DNA of 26,997 nucleotides from a virus: IMG/VR virus record IMGVR_UViG_3300032116_001110, positions 1 to 26,997 of that record. One strand, written 5' to 3'. Positions within the stretch are counted from its first letter, which is position 1. Each line of letters starts with the position of its first letter. Positions 12,412-20,904 of the stretch are shown here, in pieces. The translations under genes and the position numbers were made by a program. The notes beneath the pieces are model-generated. The model was given only the letters and a program-made list of their open reading frames with translations, was not told the DNA's origin and ran no database searches.

Positions 12412-12827
12412 CGCAGCGACCCCCGCAGCTTCGCGAGCTCGGCCCGTGCTGTGTCCCGTGACGACACGGGTGCCGGCAGCTGCGGCACGCAGCGGTACGC
12501 CGCGGCATTCTCCCGCGGCTGAGGCCTGCACCAGGCGAGGAACTCCGGCAGGCTCGGTGGCCATGGGTCGCCGTTGGTCAGGCACGCCAGAAGGCCGCGC
12601 TTCACCTGGTCACCCGACAACGCGGAAAGCGCCGTCGACCACAACTCCGTCGGCGTCTCGCCGTGGACGCTCGTCCACTTGCGGCCGTAGATTTCCGCCA
12701 TGCGCAGCCAGAACGTCGCCATCGCCTTCGAGGGCTTCCCGGTTGGCCTCCCGGACTCTGTCGACGACTGACTTCCGCGCGCCATTGCCGCCGCTTCCGC
12801 CGCTGCCAGTTCCCCTGCTTTCCGCAT
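12408..12827 (-). CDS. Replication protein P-like (helicase loader)
   Basis: About 139 residues. The core, FWLRMAEIYGRKWTSVHG then TELWSTALSALSGDQVKRGL and DPWPPSLPEFLAWCRP, matches the lambda P-type domain that in phages delivers host DnaB helicase to the origin-bound initiator. The start is uncertain: ATG 12827 (GGAG just ahead), ATG 12785 or ATG 12722. With the first, the gene overlaps the O-like gene by 218 bases in another frame. The gene ends in an ATGA overlap with the next HTH gene. No phage helicase was seen, in keeping with use of the host's. Confidence 0.78.
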   Translation of the reverse strand: MRKAGELAAAEAAAMARGSQSSTESGRPTGKPSKAMATFWLRMAEIYGRKWTSVHGETPTELWSTALSALSGDQVKRGLLACLTNGDPWPPSLPEFLAWCRPQPRENAAAYRCVPQLPAPVSSRDTARAELAKLRGSLR

Positions 12828-13461
12828 ACTCCACCGCCTTTCGCACCCAGTTTCGCCAGACCGCCTCCCAGTCGAGGGCACGGCCTCCGGCCCCGGATTT
12901 CGCCGCCCAGTAGTCCGCGAACTTCGCCAGCTCCTGCGGTGCCCTGGTCGTGCCGATGGCCCGGCAGGCGAAGGCCCAGCCGTCGGCCGATGGGGTCCAA
13001 TCCGGGGGCAATCGCGAACCCCTCGCCTCTCGAGGGGGGGCTCCCGACCGAAGGGAGGGAGGGGGGGAGTTATAGTCTGGTGTCTGGTTAGGGTTATGCT
13101 TCGGTTCCGATTCGCTAACCGATTCGGAAACCGATTCGGTTTTTTTCGGACGACCTCCGCGCTTTCCGATCTCACGGTTCACCGTGCGTTGATGCTCTGC
13201 CTTCCGCAGCTCGACATCGGCCCGCTCGTTGACCAGACCATCGTCGGTGACGCGCCAGAATCGCCGGGCCACGGAGTCGACCGCCTCGCGCTCTAGGCGC
13301 GTCTCGGCGCGCATCAGGCGGTAGAGCTCGCGCCCGGTCGGGAGGGGGCGCTCGGTGGCGTAGTAGTGCTGGAGCATCAGCAGATAGGCGCCGTGCTCGG
13401 CCAGCGACAGGGCTGCGGTGTCCCGCTGGTAGTCGCCGATGTAAAGCTTGAAGAAGTTCAC
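12610..13461 (-). CDS. Replication initiator, DUF1376 / O-like protein
   Basis: A 283-residue protein starting GTG in a GTGA overlap. Residues 1-90 are a DUF1376 domain (FFKLYIGDYQRDTAALSLAEHGAY, YLLMLQHYYATERPLPT, RRFWRVTDDGLVNERAD), the N-terminal DNA-binding part of many phage O-like initiators. A basic linker RGGRPKK (about 100) and a low-complexity Ser/Glu/Pro section follow, where three 12-bp DNA repeats lie. A C-terminal DnaT/O-like part has LAKFADYWAAKSG and WEAVWRNWVRKAVEYAE. Related proteins tend to end soon after this last motif; here about 70 further Gly/Arg-rich residues overlap the P-like gene. Confidence 0.82.
   Translation of the reverse strand: MNFFKLYIGDYQRDTAALSLAEHGAYLLMLQHYYATERPLPTGRELYRLMRAETRLEREAVDSVARRFWRVTDDGLVNERADVELRKAEHQRTVNREIGKRGGRPKKTESVSESVSESEPKHNPNQTPDYNSPPPSLRSGAPPREARGSRLPPDWTPSADGWAFACRAIGTTRAPQELAKFADYWAAKSGAGGRALDWEAVWRNWVRKAVEYAESRGTGSGGSGGNGARKSVVDRVREANREALEGDGDVLAAHGGNLRPQVDERPRRDADGVVVDGAFRVVG
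13034..13142 (+). other. Candidate replication origin: three 12-bp iterons and a G-rich tract within the O-like gene
   Basis: Three tandem 12-bp units share CCGATTCG and start at 13107, 13119 and 13131. On their left, across a comparatively AT-rich stretch (13069-13100), are four closely spaced G runs (7 G at 13034-13040; 3 at 13053; 3 at 13057; 7 at 13061-13067) able to form a G-quadruplex on the plus strand. On the right are seven T. In lambda the origin iterons lie inside gene O in the linker region, the same place as here. The repeats could also simply reflect the Ser-Glu repeat in the protein. Confidence 0.5.
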
Positions 13462-13595
13462 CGCGCGCCCTCTTCGGGTTCAGGCGACGACAGGCTGGCC
13501 AGTGCCAGGCGCTCGGCCTCCGCGCGCGACAACCCGGCGTCGAACTCGATGATCGCGGCCCGCTCGGCCCACGCTTCTCGCTGGTCGTCAGTCAC
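13458..13595 (-). CDS. Small conserved phage protein (45 residues)
   Basis: GTG start in a GTGA overlap with the CII-like gene and GTGA overlap with the O-like start. The product contains QREAWAERAAIIEFDAGLSR then AEAERLALA, a pattern I recognise from tiny proteins encoded beside replication genes in many temperate phages of proteobacteria. Both ends are fixed by tight overlaps. Function unknown; a helical, acidic peptide. Confidence 0.72.
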   Translation of the reverse strand: MTDDQREAWAERAAIIEFDAGLSRAEAERLALASLSSPEPEEGAR

Positions 13596-13900
13596 TCGTC
13601 GTCCTCCGCCAGCTCGCTCGCATGCGTCAGCCGCGACAGGCGCGACTGGGCCAGCGTGAGCAGTGCTTCGATCTCCGCTTCGGGGTAGACCTTCAGGTGT
13701 GCGGGAATGACCTTCAGGCCAAGCACGTCGAGCATCGCGGCCAGCTGGTCGATGCGACCCTCGCTGACCCAGCGCGACACCGTGGCCACGTCGACGCCGC
13801 AGGCGCGGGCGACCGGGGCCTGTCCATGCTCCGCAAGCTTCTGCCGAATTAGTCCTGCGAACTTGCGGGACTTTGCGGGTGCGTCGGGTAAATCTCCCAT
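13592..13900 (-). CDS. CII-like transcription activator
   Basis: 102 residues from ATG 13900 (TGATG overlap with the upstream gene). Residues 28-45, PVARACGVDVATVSRWVS, form an HTH very like lambda CII, followed by DQLAAMLDVLGLKVIP, which parallels the CII tetramerisation region. Lambda CII activates the repressor-establishment and integrase promoters; position between cro and the O-like gene is the lambda one. Length is close to CII (97). The acidic C-terminus ASELAEDDE might be a protease-sensitive tail, which is inference. Confidence 0.82.
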   Translation of the reverse strand: MGDLPDAPAKSRKFAGLIRQKLAEHGQAPVARACGVDVATVSRWVSEGRIDQLAAMLDVLGLKVIPAHLKVYPEAEIEALLTLAQSRLSRLTHASELAEDDE

Positions 13901-14100
13901 CACATGATCACCAGAACACCCAACGCCCAGCACACAATGCCGGCCGGCAGACACCAGCCCAGCGCGATAAAGAGCCCGCCGAGCTCGTCGGCCTCGGCGG
14001 AAAGTGGGCAGGGAGGGTCATCTGCCGTGAGGAGATCCAGCACGTCGAGGCTGGCCCGACGTCCGGCCGGAGCCGCGCGATTGGGATGGTCCACAGTCAT
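13900..14100 (-). CDS. Small protein with C-terminal membrane segment
   Basis: 66 residues. A soluble N-terminal 40 residues start MTVDHPNRAAPAG, and the C-terminal LGGLFIALGWCLPAGIVCWA plus LGVLVIM is one transmembrane helix. Its first 13 residues and the DNA around its start closely resemble the start of the next gene upstream (MTVDHPRSAASVG), suggesting a duplicated or recombined gene start. TGATG overlap with cII. Function unknown. Confidence 0.62.
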   Translation of the reverse strand: MTVDHPNRAAPAGRRASLDVLDLLTADDPPCPLSAEADELGGLFIALGWCLPAGIVCWALGVLVIM

Positions 14101-14750: not shown

Positions 14751-14763
14751 TTAGCCCTGCTAA
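14751..14763. promoter_or_regulatory. Operator 1 at cro (TTAGCCCTGCTAA)
   Basis: A 13-bp palindrome TTAGC-CCT-GCTAA, 3 bases upstream of the cro ATG. Half sites are perfect. With operator 2 (centre 25 bp away) it forms the divergent cro/repressor control region. Predicted binding site for the CI-like and/or Cro-like protein. Confidence 0.78.
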
Positions 14764-14775
14764 TGTTTGTCATTT

Positions 14776-14788
14776 TTAGCAGGGCTAA
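14776..14788. promoter_or_regulatory. Operator 2 between cro and the repressor (TTAGCAGGGCTAA)
   Basis: The exact reverse complement of operator 1, so both are the same site in opposite directions. A -35-like TTGTCA lies between the two operators at 14767-14772 on the plus strand, but no good -10 was found for it, so the repressor promoter is not fixed. Confidence 0.78.
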
Positions 14789-14823
14789 GCGTTTTCTGCA
14801 ACCCCATACGCCACACTGAAGTC

Positions 14824-15246
14824 ATGGGCGTGAACAGGAAAATTACACAGGCGGATCGCGAAGCTTCCGACAACCTGAAAAGGCTGTGGAAGGGAAAAGC
14901 CCGCGAGCTGGGCCTGACTCAACAGATCGCGGCCGAGCGCCTGGAGCGCAGCCCTGGCCTCATCAGCCAGTACATGAACGGTCATACCGCGCTTGGCCCG
15001 GTTGCCGTTCTCAAGTTCGCGCACTTGCTTCAATGCTCGCCGCGCGACATCCGTCCCGATTTCGATTACGGGACTTTGGTGCCCGGCGAGATCCCGGCCG
15101 ACGTCGTCGAGCTGGCAATCAAACTGTCCGCAGTGCCTGAACCCGTCCGCCGGGACGTGCTGGGCTACGTTTCGGTGGCCCTTGCCAATCAGGGCTACAT
15201 CGACTTTATCGTGAAGCTCGACGACAAAGTTGCAGAGCGGGCATAG
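14824..15246 (+). CDS. CI-like phage repressor (XRE family, no S24 peptidase domain)
   Basis: 140 residues from ATG 14824. HTH at about 31-52: LTQQIAAERLERSPGLISQY, MNGHTALGP, as in XRE-type phage repressors; then DIRPDF, a common end of such domains. The C-terminal 60 residues (VVELAIKLSAVPEPVRRDVL, GYVSVALANQGYI) are helical and lack the Ser-Lys protease of lambda CI, so induction by RecA-driven self-cleavage is not expected. Divergent from cro and flanked on both sides by operator pairs, so it should control both the leftward unit and the rightward operon. The frame is open 19 codons upstream through the operator region; the later start is preferred. Confidence 0.85.
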   Translation: MGVNRKITQADREASDNLKRLWKGKARELGLTQQIAAERLERSPGLISQYMNGHTALGPVAVLKFAHLLQCSPRDIRPDFDYGTLVPGEIPADVVELAIKLSAVPEPVRRDVLGYVSVALANQGYIDFIVKLDDKVAERA

Positions 15247-15312
15247 CGCGTCTATCCTTCACGCATCACGACCAGTGATTGCTCCCACCCCCAGCTTATG
15301 GGTGGAACACCA

Positions 15313-15351
15313 GACGCCTCGACGGTTGCAGCCGCCGGGGCGTCGTCTTTT
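15313..15351 (+). terminator. Probable intrinsic terminator after the repressor gene
   Basis: GACGCC (15313-15318) pairs with GGCGTC (15339-15344), followed by GTCTTTT. The loop is long (20 bases) and can form extra GC pairs. It lies 66 bases after the repressor stop, ahead of the second operator pair, and would separate repressor transcription from the rightward operon. Confidence 0.5.
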
Positions 15352-15412
15352 CTGGGGTATCCCCGTCCGTCTCTTTATTCCACATGCGGCTGGCTTTCTG
15401 TTCTATCGAAGT

Positions 15413-15425
15413 TTAGCAGTGCTAT
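15413..15425. promoter_or_regulatory. Operator 3 (TTAGCAGTGCTAT)
   Basis: One-mismatch copy of the TTAGC-N3-GCTAA palindrome. Its last base overlaps the -35 of the predicted rightward promoter. Its centre is 25 bp from that of operator 4, the same spacing as operators 1 and 2. Confidence 0.75.
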
Positions 15426-15453
15426 TGCACACATAGTTTAGCCCTGCTATTGT
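15425..15453 (+). promoter_or_regulatory. Predicted rightward early promoter
   Basis: TTGCAC (15425-15430), a 17-base spacer, and TATTGT (15448-15453) fit a sigma70 promoter with 4 of 6 matches in each box. Operator 4 fills most of the spacer and touches the -10; operator 3 touches the -35. Repressor binding would block polymerase directly. It would drive all plus-strand genes from 15495 to int. Confidence 0.6.
15438..15450. promoter_or_regulatory. Operator 4 (TTAGCCCTGCTAT)
   Basis: Differs from operator 1 only in the last base, and shares flanking bases (TAGT before it, TG after). It lies inside the spacer of the predicted rightward promoter. Confidence 0.77.
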
Positions 15454-15494: not shown

Positions 15495-15632
15495 ATGATC
15501 CAGATCGACTACGAGACCGCCCGCCGCCGTGCGTGGCTGTCGCGGTGGCACAGCGCCACCGTCGAGCGCCGGGTGCGCTTCTACGGCTGGGCGACCGTGC
15601 TGGCCTTCGTTGTACTGGGGGCTGCGCGATGA
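15495..15632 (+). CDS. Small single-pass membrane protein, first gene of the rightward operon
   Basis: 45 residues from ATG 15495 with a strong GGGAGGAG ribosome site. N-terminal half is basic (IDYETARRRAWLSRW), C-terminal VRFYGWATVLAFVVLGAA is one membrane helix. The stop overlaps the next ATG (ATGA). First-gene position and a strong ribosome site suggest high early expression. Function unknown; no family recognised. Confidence 0.65.
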   Translation: MIQIDYETARRRAWLSRWHSATVERRVRFYGWATVLAFVVLGAAR

Positions 15633-15799: not shown

Positions 15800-16005
15800 G
15801 CGCGGTACAGCAGGCAATCATCCGGCGCACCGGGTCCGAGGTTGTGCTGTCGATGGCGAGCGACGACCTCGACGCCCTGCTCGACGCGGCCAGTCGCTAC
15901 GTCCGCGACTACCACCCGGTCGGCTACGGCACGACGGTCAGCAAGCCGAAGCACTCCGACGGCCGCTGGCTCGTCCAGGTTTGGAGGGCTGCGACATGCG
16001 AGTAG
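15796..16005 (+). CDS. Small hypothetical phage protein
   Basis: 69 residues, starting MSAVQQAIIRRTGSEVVLSM, then DDLDALLDAASRYVRDYHP and ending RWLVQVWRAATCE. ATGA overlap with the upstream gene; the exonuclease start lies 10 bases inside its end. The final strand-like VSKPKHSDGRWLVQVWR could form a beta hairpin. No family recognised. Confidence 0.65.
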   Translation: MSAVQQAIIRRTGSEVVLSMASDDLDALLDAASRYVRDYHPVGYGTTVSKPKHSDGRWLVQVWRAATCE

Positions 16006-16973
16006 CCGCGGCACCCCGCATTGAATGGCTGGCCCAGCGCCAGCGCGGCATCGGCGGCAGCGACGTTGCCGCCATCCTTGGCCTCTCGCCGTGGGCGACA
16101 CCGCTCGACGTGTACCTGCAGAAGACCGGCCCGGTCGTCGACCGCGACCTCGGCGAGCCTGCCTATTGGGGCACGGTGCTGGAAGGCGTCGTCGCCGACG
16201 AGTACAGCAAGCGCGCCGAGCGCCCCATCATCGAAGTGCATGCCACGCTGCACGCGCCGGATGCCGACTGGATGCTGGCGAACATCGACCGCGCCGTCGG
16301 GCACTTCGCCCGCGTCGAGGCCGGGCGCCTCGTCGGTGCTGATGGCTTGCTGGAGTGCAAGACCGCCTCAGCCTTCAAGTCCGCGGACTGGGGCCGTGGC
16401 GACGACGAGGACGCCGTCCCCGTCCACTACGCCGCTCAGTGCATGTGGTACCTCGCGGTCACCGGCCTTGAATGGATCGACGTGGCCTGCTTGATCGGCG
16501 GCCAACGGTTCGTCCAGAAGCGCGTCGTGCGCGACGAGGAAACCATCGCGGCGATCGTCGAGCGCTGCTCCGCGTTCTGGCACGGCTGCGTCGTGCAGCG
16601 CAAAGCGCCGGAGCCGACCTCATCGCGCGACGTCATCACCCTCTACCCCGAGGACAACGGCCAAGCCGTCGAGGCTGGCGAGGCAGAGCTCGCTGCGTAC
16701 TCCGAGGCGCTCGCGCTGCGCCAGCAGATCGAGGCGCTGGAGGCCGAGCTCGAGCAGCGCACCGAGGCGCTGAAGGTCGCCATCGGCGAGCGCGCAGCGC
16801 TGACGCTCGACGGCAAGCAGCTCGTCACCTGGAAGGCCGCCAAGGCCAGCACGAAAACCGACTGGCGTGCGATCGCCGAGACCTACAAACCCGACCCCGA
16901 ATGGGCCGAGCGGTTCGCCGCGGCCACCACCACCGTGCCCGGCTCGCGCCGGTTCATCTTCTGCAAGAGGTAA
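15996..16973 (+). CDS. YqaJ-type viral recombinase exonuclease
   Basis: 325 residues from ATG 15996, GGAGGG seven bases upstream (a TTG five codons earlier is less likely). The N-terminus QRQRGIGGSDVAAILGLSPW is the signature of the YqaJ / lambda-exonuclease family. Catalytic residues visible: E63 (VLEG), D98 (NIDR), E120 and K122 (LLECKT), and Q148 (YAAQ). A coiled coil at about 225-262 separates the nuclease from a C-terminal 60-residue part ending PGSRRFIFCKR. It digests 5' strands of double-stranded DNA and hands 3' tails to the annealing protein encoded next, forming a Red-like recombination pair. Confidence 0.93.
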   Translation: MRVAAAPRIEWLAQRQRGIGGSDVAAILGLSPWATPLDVYLQKTGPVVDRDLGEPAYWGTVLEGVVADEYSKRAERPIIEVHATLHAPDADWMLANIDRAVGHFARVEAGRLVGADGLLECKTASAFKSADWGRGDDEDAVPVHYAAQCMWYLAVTGLEWIDVACLIGGQRFVQKRVVRDEETIAAIVERCSAFWHGCVVQRKAPEPTSSRDVITLYPEDNGQAVEAGEAELAAYSEALALRQQIEALEAELEQRTEALKVAIGERAALTLDGKQLVTWKAAKASTKTDWRAIAETYKPDPEWAERFAAATTTVPGSRRFIFCKR

Positions 16974-16976
16974 CCC

Positions 16977-17933
16977 ATGACCACCGCACTCAAGGCCGCC
17001 GTGACGAACGCGCCGGCAAAGAAGCGCCCGGACACCATCGCCGGACTGCTGACCGACCCCGCCATCAAGGCGCAGATGGCACTGGCGCTGCCGCGCCACA
17101 TGACCGCGGAGCGCCTTGCGCGCATTGCCCTGACCGAGGTGCGCAAGACGCCAGCGCTCGGCCGGTGCGACCAGGCTTCGTTCCTCGGCGCGATCATGCA
17201 GTGCGCCGCCCTGGGCCTTGAGCCCGGCGGTGCGCTTGGCCACGCCTACCTGCTGCCTTTCGAGAACCGCAAGAAGGGCATCACCGAGGTGCAGTTCATC
17301 GTGGGCTATCGCGGCATGATCGACCTTGCTCGGCGCTCCGGTCAGATCCTCAGCATCGAGGCGCGCGTCGTCTACGAGGCCGATCGCTTCGACGTGCAGC
17401 TTGGCCTCGACAGCAATCTGGTGCACGTGCCCGCGTGGGACGTCGCGGAGCGCGGGCCGCTGCGGTTCGTCTACGCCGTGGCCAAACTCAAGGACGGCGG
17501 CACCCAGTTCGAGGTGATGAGCCGCCTCGAGGTGGAGAAGGTCCGCGCCAAGTCGCGCGCCGCGAACAACGGCCCGTGGGTCGACCACTACGAGGAAATG
17601 GCGAAGAAGACGGTGATCCGTCGCCTCTTTAAGTACCTTCCAGTCAGCATCGAGCTTGCGACCGCCGTCGGCCTCGACGAGCAGGCCGAGGCCGGCATCG
17701 CGCAGGACAACCCGCTCACGATCGACGTGGAGCCCACGGAGACGGGGCAGGAGCGCGGCGACGCGGGGGCCGAGGACTTGCCCTTGCCCCAGCTGCTGGA
17801 GCTGCTGGAGGGCGCCAGCGACGCCGAGGGCATCGACTTCATTCGCAGCATGGGCGCGCACCTGCAGGACGCCGAGCGCGTCCAGCTCGCAGAGGCGAGC
17901 CGCCAGCGCATGAAGGCGCTTCAACCCGAGTAA
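16977..17933 (+). CDS. recT: RecT-family single-strand annealing protein
   Basis: 318 residues, three bases after the exonuclease. RecT hallmarks: LARIALTEVRKTPAL, SFLGAIMQCAALGLEPGGAL, then GHAYLLPFENRKKG and EVQFIVGYRGMIDLARRSG, and WVDHYEEMAKKTVIRRLFKYLP near residue 200. The C-terminal third (about 235-318) is acidic and probably flexible, binding partners rather than DNA. It anneals complementary single strands at ends produced by the exonuclease, acting in phage DNA repair and recombination. Confidence 0.95.
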   Translation: MTTALKAAVTNAPAKKRPDTIAGLLTDPAIKAQMALALPRHMTAERLARIALTEVRKTPALGRCDQASFLGAIMQCAALGLEPGGALGHAYLLPFENRKKGITEVQFIVGYRGMIDLARRSGQILSIEARVVYEADRFDVQLGLDSNLVHVPAWDVAERGPLRFVYAVAKLKDGGTQFEVMSRLEVEKVRAKSRAANNGPWVDHYEEMAKKTVIRRLFKYLPVSIELATAVGLDEQAEAGIAQDNPLTIDVEPTETGQERGDAGAEDLPLPQLLELLEGASDAEGIDFIRSMGAHLQDAERVQLAEASRQRMKALQPE

Positions 17934-20213: not shown

Positions 20214-20384
20214 ATGAGCAACACCAAAAGCGGCGGGCCGGCGTTTCCTTTCCCGACCTTGCATGGGAGCGATGCGCTCGAAATGGTCCGCGATGCGGAC
20301 AACGACTGTGACAAGGACGGATTGCGCCGAATCCCTGAGCCAGCGAGGGCCAAGATAGACATGGCGCTGGATGGCAAGCCATGA
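20214..20384 (+). CDS. Small conserved phage protein (GGPAFP type)
   Basis: 56 residues, ATG 20214 with a GGGGTGAGGG ribosome site. Begins MSNTKSGGPAFPFPTLHGSD; the T-K-x-G-G-P-A-F-P motif is typical of a widespread group of tiny phage proteins. Here the usual following G-M-T-L-R-D-Y-F-A part is missing and the rest (DNDCDKDGLRRIPEPARAKI) is different. ATGA overlap with the next gene. Function unknown. Confidence 0.65.
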   Translation: MSNTKSGGPAFPFPTLHGSDALEMVRDADNDCDKDGLRRIPEPARAKIDMALDGKP

Positions 20385-20548
20385 CCCACCCATCCCAACA
20401 GCCCCGCAAGCAATGCCCGCGCGGCCACCAGCTGGCCGGCGACAACCTGGTGCTGCACCGGGACCGCAGGCCGAGCGGGAAGCCGCGTATTCGCCGGCGC
20501 TGCCGAGAGTGCGAGCGCGCACGCTGGGAGGCCCGGAAATGCTCCTGA
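20381..20548 (+). CDS. Small zinc-finger-like protein
   Basis: 55 residues. C12-x3-H16 (CPRGHQLAGDNL) and C41-x2-C44 (CRECERARWEARK) give a CH...CC metal site; the G-H-x-L-x-G-D-N-L pattern is common in small phage HNH-like or zinc-finger proteins. No His-Asn-His catalytic set is visible, so a binding role is more likely. The gene overlaps the excisionase start by 10 bases. Confidence 0.68.
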   Translation: MTHPSQQPRKQCPRGHQLAGDNLVLHRDRRPSGKPRIRRRCRECERARWEARKCS

Positions 20549-20904
20549 CCGCGCAAGAGGTTGCTGCCCGCCTGCAGGTGTCGACCAAGACCGTCTGGCG
20601 CCTGGTCGACTCCGGGAGGTTGGCGGCGGTACGCTTGACGTCGAGCCGCCGCGGCTGGCGGTTCACGGAGGCGGCCGTGGTGGCTGCCGTCAACGAAAGC
20701 GAGGAGAAGGCAGCATGCCCGTCCGCAAGCGTGGCGACGCCTGGCAGGTCGACGTACAGGTCGGCGGACGCCGTGCTCGACAGACTGTTGGGACCAAAGC
20801 CACGGCGCTCGAAGTCGAGGCGAAACTGCGGCGCGACCTCGAGCGCGAGCGGGTCGGCCTCAGCCCCAATCGTACCCTTAAGGACGCACTTGCCGACTAC
20901 CTAG
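20539..20904 (+). CDS. xis: Excisionase-like winged-helix protein
   Basis: 121 residues from ATG 20539. The first 60 are a MerR/excisionase-type winged helix: LTAQEVAARLQVSTKTVWRL, VDSGRLAAVRL, then GWRFTEAAVVAAVNESEEKA, a domain that binds DNA and bends it. The frame then stays open for 60 Ser/Arg-rich residues overlapping the integrase start by 190 bases in another frame. It lies directly ahead of int as in lambda, so it should direct excision. The C-terminal tail may be only a by-product of the overlap. Confidence 0.78.
   Translation: MLLTAQEVAARLQVSTKTVWRLVDSGRLAAVRLTSSRRGWRFTEAAVVAAVNESEEKAACPSASVATPGRSTYRSADAVLDRLLGPKPRRSKSRRNCGATSSASGSASAPIVPLRTHLPTT

Follow-up and report, generated by a model that had tools for sequence, protein, structure and literature searches.

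Described prophage switches

The CI repressor of phage lambda has an S24 C-terminal domain and uses three 17-bp sites per operator, with OL and OR ~2.3 kb apart. Shorter repressors have been described in other prophages. DicA, a 135-aa repressor without a cleavage bond, has OR- and OL-like operators and is relieved by an antirepressor (PMC10448788). The Gifsy repressors, of ~136 aa, are also uncleaved and are freed from DNA by antirepressors (PMC3121763). In Rac, RacR represses ydaS and binds between racR and ydaS, a region with three repeats (PMC5700373). In CP-933P, the CI and Cro roles at OR and at an OL-like promoter fall to PaaR2, which is octameric, and YdaS; together with YdaT they are regarded as CI, Cro and CII analogues on overlapping operators (PMC8630535). 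For RacR, DicA and PaaR2/YdaS, binding or repression has been demonstrated by experiment (PMC5700373, PMC10448788, PMC8630535). In phage 933W, OL3 is missing and the repressor apparently binds non-cooperatively (PMC3317979), so three sites per operator set are not universal.

Organisation of the immunity region

The window analysed here is an entire IMG/VR record of 26,997 bases, for which no DNA similarity to catalogued phages was found in the region concerned. The locus is best read as the immunity region of a temperate podovirus, lambda-like in mirror image, with a repressor/Cro switch working at four palindromes (probability roughly 0.88). The phage is classed as a podovirus from its head-tail connector, T7-like tail fibre and terminase genes, and as temperate from its integrase gene. 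An excisionase-family helix-turn-helix (HTH) protein (20371-20904, plus strand; TIGR01764, 9e-9) is encoded just before the integrase at 20715. The features of the region are listed in Table 1.

Table 1. Genes, operators and candidate signals of the immunity region (positions in the window; PWM, score against the operator family matrix)
Feature	Position	Strand	Basis
DUF1376/DnaT-like replication gene, cro side	12610-13461	-	Pfam 3e-23
cro-like gene, YdaS family, 71 aa	14532-14747	-	Pfam PF15943 3e-15; PHROG 35 6e-17
OR operator, cro-proximal: TTAGCCCTGCTAA	14751-14763		Read directly; PWM 12.1
Possible weak, shifted cro promoter: TTGCAG-17-TAAAAA	14773-14801	-	Suggested by sequence
OR operator, repressor-proximal: TTAGCAGGGCTAA	14776-14788		PWM 5.6, lowest of the four
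Short CI-like repressor gene, 140 aa	14824-15246	+	Lambda-CI-type N-terminal domain and ~55-residue helical C-terminal part (predicted)
Hairpin followed by GTCTTTTCT, possible terminator between repressor gene and OL	15313-15344	+	Fold
OL operator A: TTAGCAGTGCTAT	15413-15425		PWM 13.8
pL-like promoter: TTGCAC (15425-15430), 17 bp, TATTGT (15448-15453)	15425-15453	+	Family register: -35 at site A +12, -10 at site B +10
OL operator B: TTAGCCCTGCTAT	15438-15450		PWM 11.9
First small ORF of rightward operon	15495-15632	+	
YqaJ/lambda-exonuclease family protein, OL-side operon	15996-16973	+	Pfam 2e-33; TIGR03033 8e-33
RecT single-strand annealing protein	16977-17933	+	Pfam 3e-57; PHROG 148 4e-96

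The repressor and cro genes are divergent with operators between them. A second operator set of the same word lies beyond the repressor gene, over the promoter of the recombination operon, giving the order ydaS/cro operon (leftward), OR, repressor gene, OL, lambda-exonuclease/RecT operon (rightward). With lambda the locus shares the mirror-image gene order, the CI N-terminal fold, operators that bracket promoters and an exonuclease operon at pL. It differs from lambda in having two sites at each of OR and OL rather than three, an OR-to-OL distance of ~660 bp and no S24 domain. The preliminary description had contrasted the operator pairs with lambda; for layout and spacing this contrast is not supported, as the layout is that of OR-cI-OL in lambda and many relatives, like K-12 Rac, have similar sites at a distance of 24-25 bp. 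The difference in site number is real, but it is shared with the closest relative (locus L134, also 2+2), and 933W too departs from three sites, having no OL3. The operator word and repressor of 933W are different, and the two are not of the same gene family by any test run.

By sequence, residues 5-79 of the repressor correspond to the N-terminal domain of lambda CI, and a model predicted with an alignment of 15 sequences can be superposed on lambda CI at 0.9-1.0 Å over ~75 residues. This model superseded a poor one made without an alignment (pLDDT 52), and its confidence is low in the C-terminal part (pLDDT ~51-71). Peptidase S24 (PF00717) was not found by Pfam in the 140-aa protein, so that it is not an S24-type CI but has the composition of the short non-cleavable repressors (CI-like HTH, about 135-160 aa, no S24). 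The repressor probably belongs to the RacR-SA53/DicA/GfoR class of short prophage repressors. Its nearest named relative is that of the Rac-SA53 prophage, to which it is 51% identical over residues 13-80. DicA/DicC of Qin and GfoR/GtgR of Gifsy are likewise repressors of ~135-140 aa without a cleavage domain. The NCBIfam DicA match covers residues 25-74 only (0.009), while hhalign against the C-terminus of DicA and SA53 gives a weak profile alignment that extends to residue 110; the operator word of DicA differs from that of the window.

The cro product scores 56.2 bits against PF15943 (cutoff 30) and is thus of the YdaS family; it also matches Cro structures in the PDB (3bd1, 3e-9; 8co2/8c7k). 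The labels given to both genes in the preliminary description, cro and a 140-residue repressor without a cleavage domain, are therefore correct. Since Pfam names YdaS a toxin and ydaS is toxic in K-12 (PMC5700373), the two genes might instead form a toxin-antitoxin pair with the palindromes as its autoregulatory operators. YdaS has been argued to be a Cro (PMC8630535), and this reading is very improbable and was set aside, since the second operator pair would control the recombination operon and the layout and family match those of cI/cro.

The correspondence with Rac and Rac-SA53 of Escherichia coli extends beyond the short repressor and divergent YdaS Cro. A ydaU-like DUF1376 gene stands on the cro side, taking the place of ydaU in Rac and having cro-side homologues in L134, Rac-SA53 and K-12 Rac, and recombination genes stand on the OL side. 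The exonuclease is YqaJ-type in the window and RecE (recE) in Rac. The K-12 RacR is a different HTH protein with three OR sites, as opposed to two in the window. CP-933P differs from the window in its four 18-bp repeats of GTTTAGTAA consensus and its toxin-antitoxin operon that contains the repressor gene. A 120-aa ORF on the cro side (13592-13954, minus strand) has a weak HTH match and is a possible CII/YdaT analogue.

Operator palindromes and promoters

The four sites share the consensus TTAGC-N3-GCTA(A/T), and the distance from start to start is 25 bp within the OR pair and within the OL pair alike. Direct reading confirmed the sites and spacing that had been described earlier. With up to one mismatch to TTAGCN3GCTAA, the whole 26,997-bp record gives 4 matches, which are just these sites, whereas 100 shuffles of the record gave a mean of 0.17 and a maximum of 2; a chance origin was rejected on this basis. 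A longer contig of 35,882 bp, the sole very close one that turned up and 99.97% identical to the record over a shared 9.5 kb, holds the same sites and no others. It is the same phage and so does not count as independent evidence, yet the word is not frequent elsewhere in either sequence, an outcome that had been named as one that would count against the operator reading. PWM scoring at distances of 23-27 bp to each side of the pairs turned up no third OR or OL site.

The position of the cro-proximal OR site relative to the repressor start is the same as in L134, L140 and others. An AGGG within this operator, 7 bases before the cro ATG, may represent a Shine-Dalgarno-like sequence. At OL, the rightmost base of operator A is also the first of the rightward promoter's -35, and operator B overlaps the -10 of this promoter. 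These elements fit the family template. A consensus promoter/terminator scan at a strict threshold called none of the OL promoter, the shifted cro promoter and the hairpin terminator, and the OL promoter is thus assigned by family register and not by the scan. The 17-bp-spaced promoter proposed earlier over the second pair is present, although it is imperfect and falls below that threshold. The OR pair does not fit the template, as the -35 register on the cro strand reads AAAATG; the OR spacing is consequently not explained by a visible in-register promoter.

Some gamma-proteobacterial LexA boxes resemble TTAG-type palindromes, a likeness which would allow the sites to serve a host regulator such as LexA. 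In the window, TTAGN6TACTA had no match and CTGTN8ACAG-like matches occurred at chance level. As no LexA box was above chance in the window, and as the repressor gene is accompanied by these sites in phages of 0.33-0.69 GC, host LexA sites were rejected and a role of this kind is barely credible.

Relatives carrying the operator word

A search of genome contigs with the repressor protein alone gave no match, and an alignment-based protein search of the same contigs returned two loci only; when three repressors were aligned and the alignment served as query, 80 loci were recovered. In nearly all 80, TTAG-N5-CTAA palindromes lie upstream of the repressor gene, a second palindrome being mostly 24-25 bp from the first, and many have a further pair 0.5-2.2 kb downstream. 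The conserved pairs that the preliminary description proposed to look for in related phages are thus found. The closest relative, L134 (43% identity), has 2+2 sites at 24 bp, a YdaS Cro, DUF1376 genes and no third sites. In several other relatives OR has three sites, at spacings of 25 and 23 bp. The region of L140 showed no DNA similarity to catalogued phages.

The C-terminal part of the repressor varies among these phages. L136, L140, L204 and L206 combine the same DNA-binding domain with an S24-like C-terminal domain, as read from sequence, and the window, L134, L084/L209 and SA53 carry a short tail. The operator word is also found near a separate group of S24 repressors by Pfam (L026, L072, L106, L116); PF00717 is present in P0008, P0009 and others. 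In L135, L205 and L210 the same DNA-binding domain continues into ~110-120 residues that can be aligned neither with the short tail nor with an S24 domain over its full length.

Common to the repressors beside the operator word is the recognition-helix region [TS]QGxVSQYxNG. This association across phages argues against the palindromes being used by the YdaS-type Cro only, with the repressor binding elsewhere. Such an arrangement is conceivable given that both proteins have HTH domains and that the footprints of PaaR2 and YdaS overlap (PMC8630535), but it is quite improbable here. The four palindromes almost certainly serve the repressor as its docking sites in a lambda-style switch. The earlier proposal that the two pairs are repressor/Cro operators flanking the repressor gene is supported by the gene identities, the layout and the conservation in the family.

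In many relatives (L209, L134, L204, L206, L212, L217 and L227), the cro promoter -10 ends 6-7 bases before the cro ATG, and the cro mRNA would therefore have no leader, a property that belongs to the repressor gene in lambda and CP-933P.

Proposed regulation

In the switch as read here, a repressor dimer would bind each TTAGCN3GCTAA palindrome. Repressor at OR would block the leftward cro (ydaS) and replication operon, and repressor at OL would cover the -35 and -10 and so block the rightward exonuclease/RecT operon. After induction, the YdaS-type Cro would take the same sites and shut off the repressor gene. Induction probably proceeds via an antirepressor, and not by RecA-stimulated self-cleavage. 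The lack of a third site counts against this reading, as it offers no place for the discrimination between Cro and CI that is usual at OR3.

A reduced 2+2 switch without OR3, with cooperativity arising from a non-S24 C-terminal domain at the same 24-25 bp spacing, is an unlikely reading. If it were true, the operator-promoter module would be a fixed frame on which phages swap repressor oligomerisation domains, and Cro and the repressor would discriminate without a third site.

Operator spacing

The 25-bp spacing is not peculiar to this phage and recurs in many others. Rac-type operator pairs are 25 bp apart, with a -35 of GCTATTGA in SA53-like loci and GCCTATTGACA in K-12; in K-12 Rac the word is TTAGGCN3GCCTAA in the same promoter register. 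No described TTAGCN3GCTAA operator family with a spacing rule was found in the literature searched, which does not show that none exists.

Two scans of IMG/VR bear on what sets the distance. The first, independent of protein, took two operator words 3-30 bases apart and gave 22 loci at spacing 25, no more than 5 at any other spacing that is not a multiple of three and no more than 13 at each multiple of three, among the matches listed. Among the matches listed, TTG stood at the -35 register in 20 of the 31 distinct pairs with spacings of 24-26 bp, as against 2 of 93 with other spacings. For the second scan, a TTGAC -35 was fixed (GCTATTGAC) and the gap to the next palindrome was left free (2-20). 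Of 80 distinct modules, 75 had sites 24 (20), 25 (44) or 26 (11) bp apart, distances that correspond to spacers of 16, 17 and 18 bp in the promoter; TA...T was in register at the -10 in 74 of those 75. Although exact duplicates had been taken out, related lineages are still among the modules, which therefore do not count as independent events. In promoter-bearing pairs, operator spacing accordingly follows the promoter, and the spacing at OL is largely promoter-locked. The palindromes at OL would be interlocked with a promoter of 17-bp spacer, hence the 25 bp.

The spacing might instead be set mainly by the repressor, with dimers touching on one face of the DNA and binding cooperatively, and OL and OR tetramers looping the ~660 bp between them. 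The OR pair, still 25 bp apart although it shows no good promoter in register, is in keeping with this, as is the octamer formation by PaaR2 and lambda CI (PMC8630535). In three-site relatives, the promoter-free neighbour of a -35-bearing site is 23-25 bp away at 9 of 15 loci and 35 bp away at 4, which are alike, with one locus each at 15 and 32 bp. Against a spacing set mainly by the repressor stand the tracking of the spacer by promoter-bearing pairs, the 933W repressor, reportedly not cooperative (PMC3317979), and the retention of the same DNA-binding domain and spacing with S24, shortened or unrelated C-termini. It is the less probable explanation, although a tenable one. The promoter-free neighbours at 23-25 bp leave room for, and suggest, a dimer-dimer constraint in addition to promoter locking, and the spacing at OR is either inherited or due to dimer-dimer contact. 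Cooperativity or looping over the ~660 bp, as put forward in the preliminary description, is plausible.

The window itself, with promoter-locked spacing at OL, is an ordinary lambda-style switch of a known kind, and its value is as a handle on the wider pattern. Across phages of 35-70% GC that share the operator word and the 24-26 bp spacing, the spacing tracks the promoter spacer while the C-terminus varies between S24, a short helical tail and other domains, which makes it directly testable whether lambdoid operator spacing is dictated by the geometry of RNA polymerase or by contacts of the repressor.

In the first scan, palindrome pairs also peak at 15, 21, 27, 33 and 39 (L008-L126, among the matches listed); peaks at multiples of three may reflect repeats inside coding sequence. 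Four loci (L309, L311, L314 and L315), whose sequences look related, have three sites with the outer one 35 bp from its neighbour, one helical turn more.
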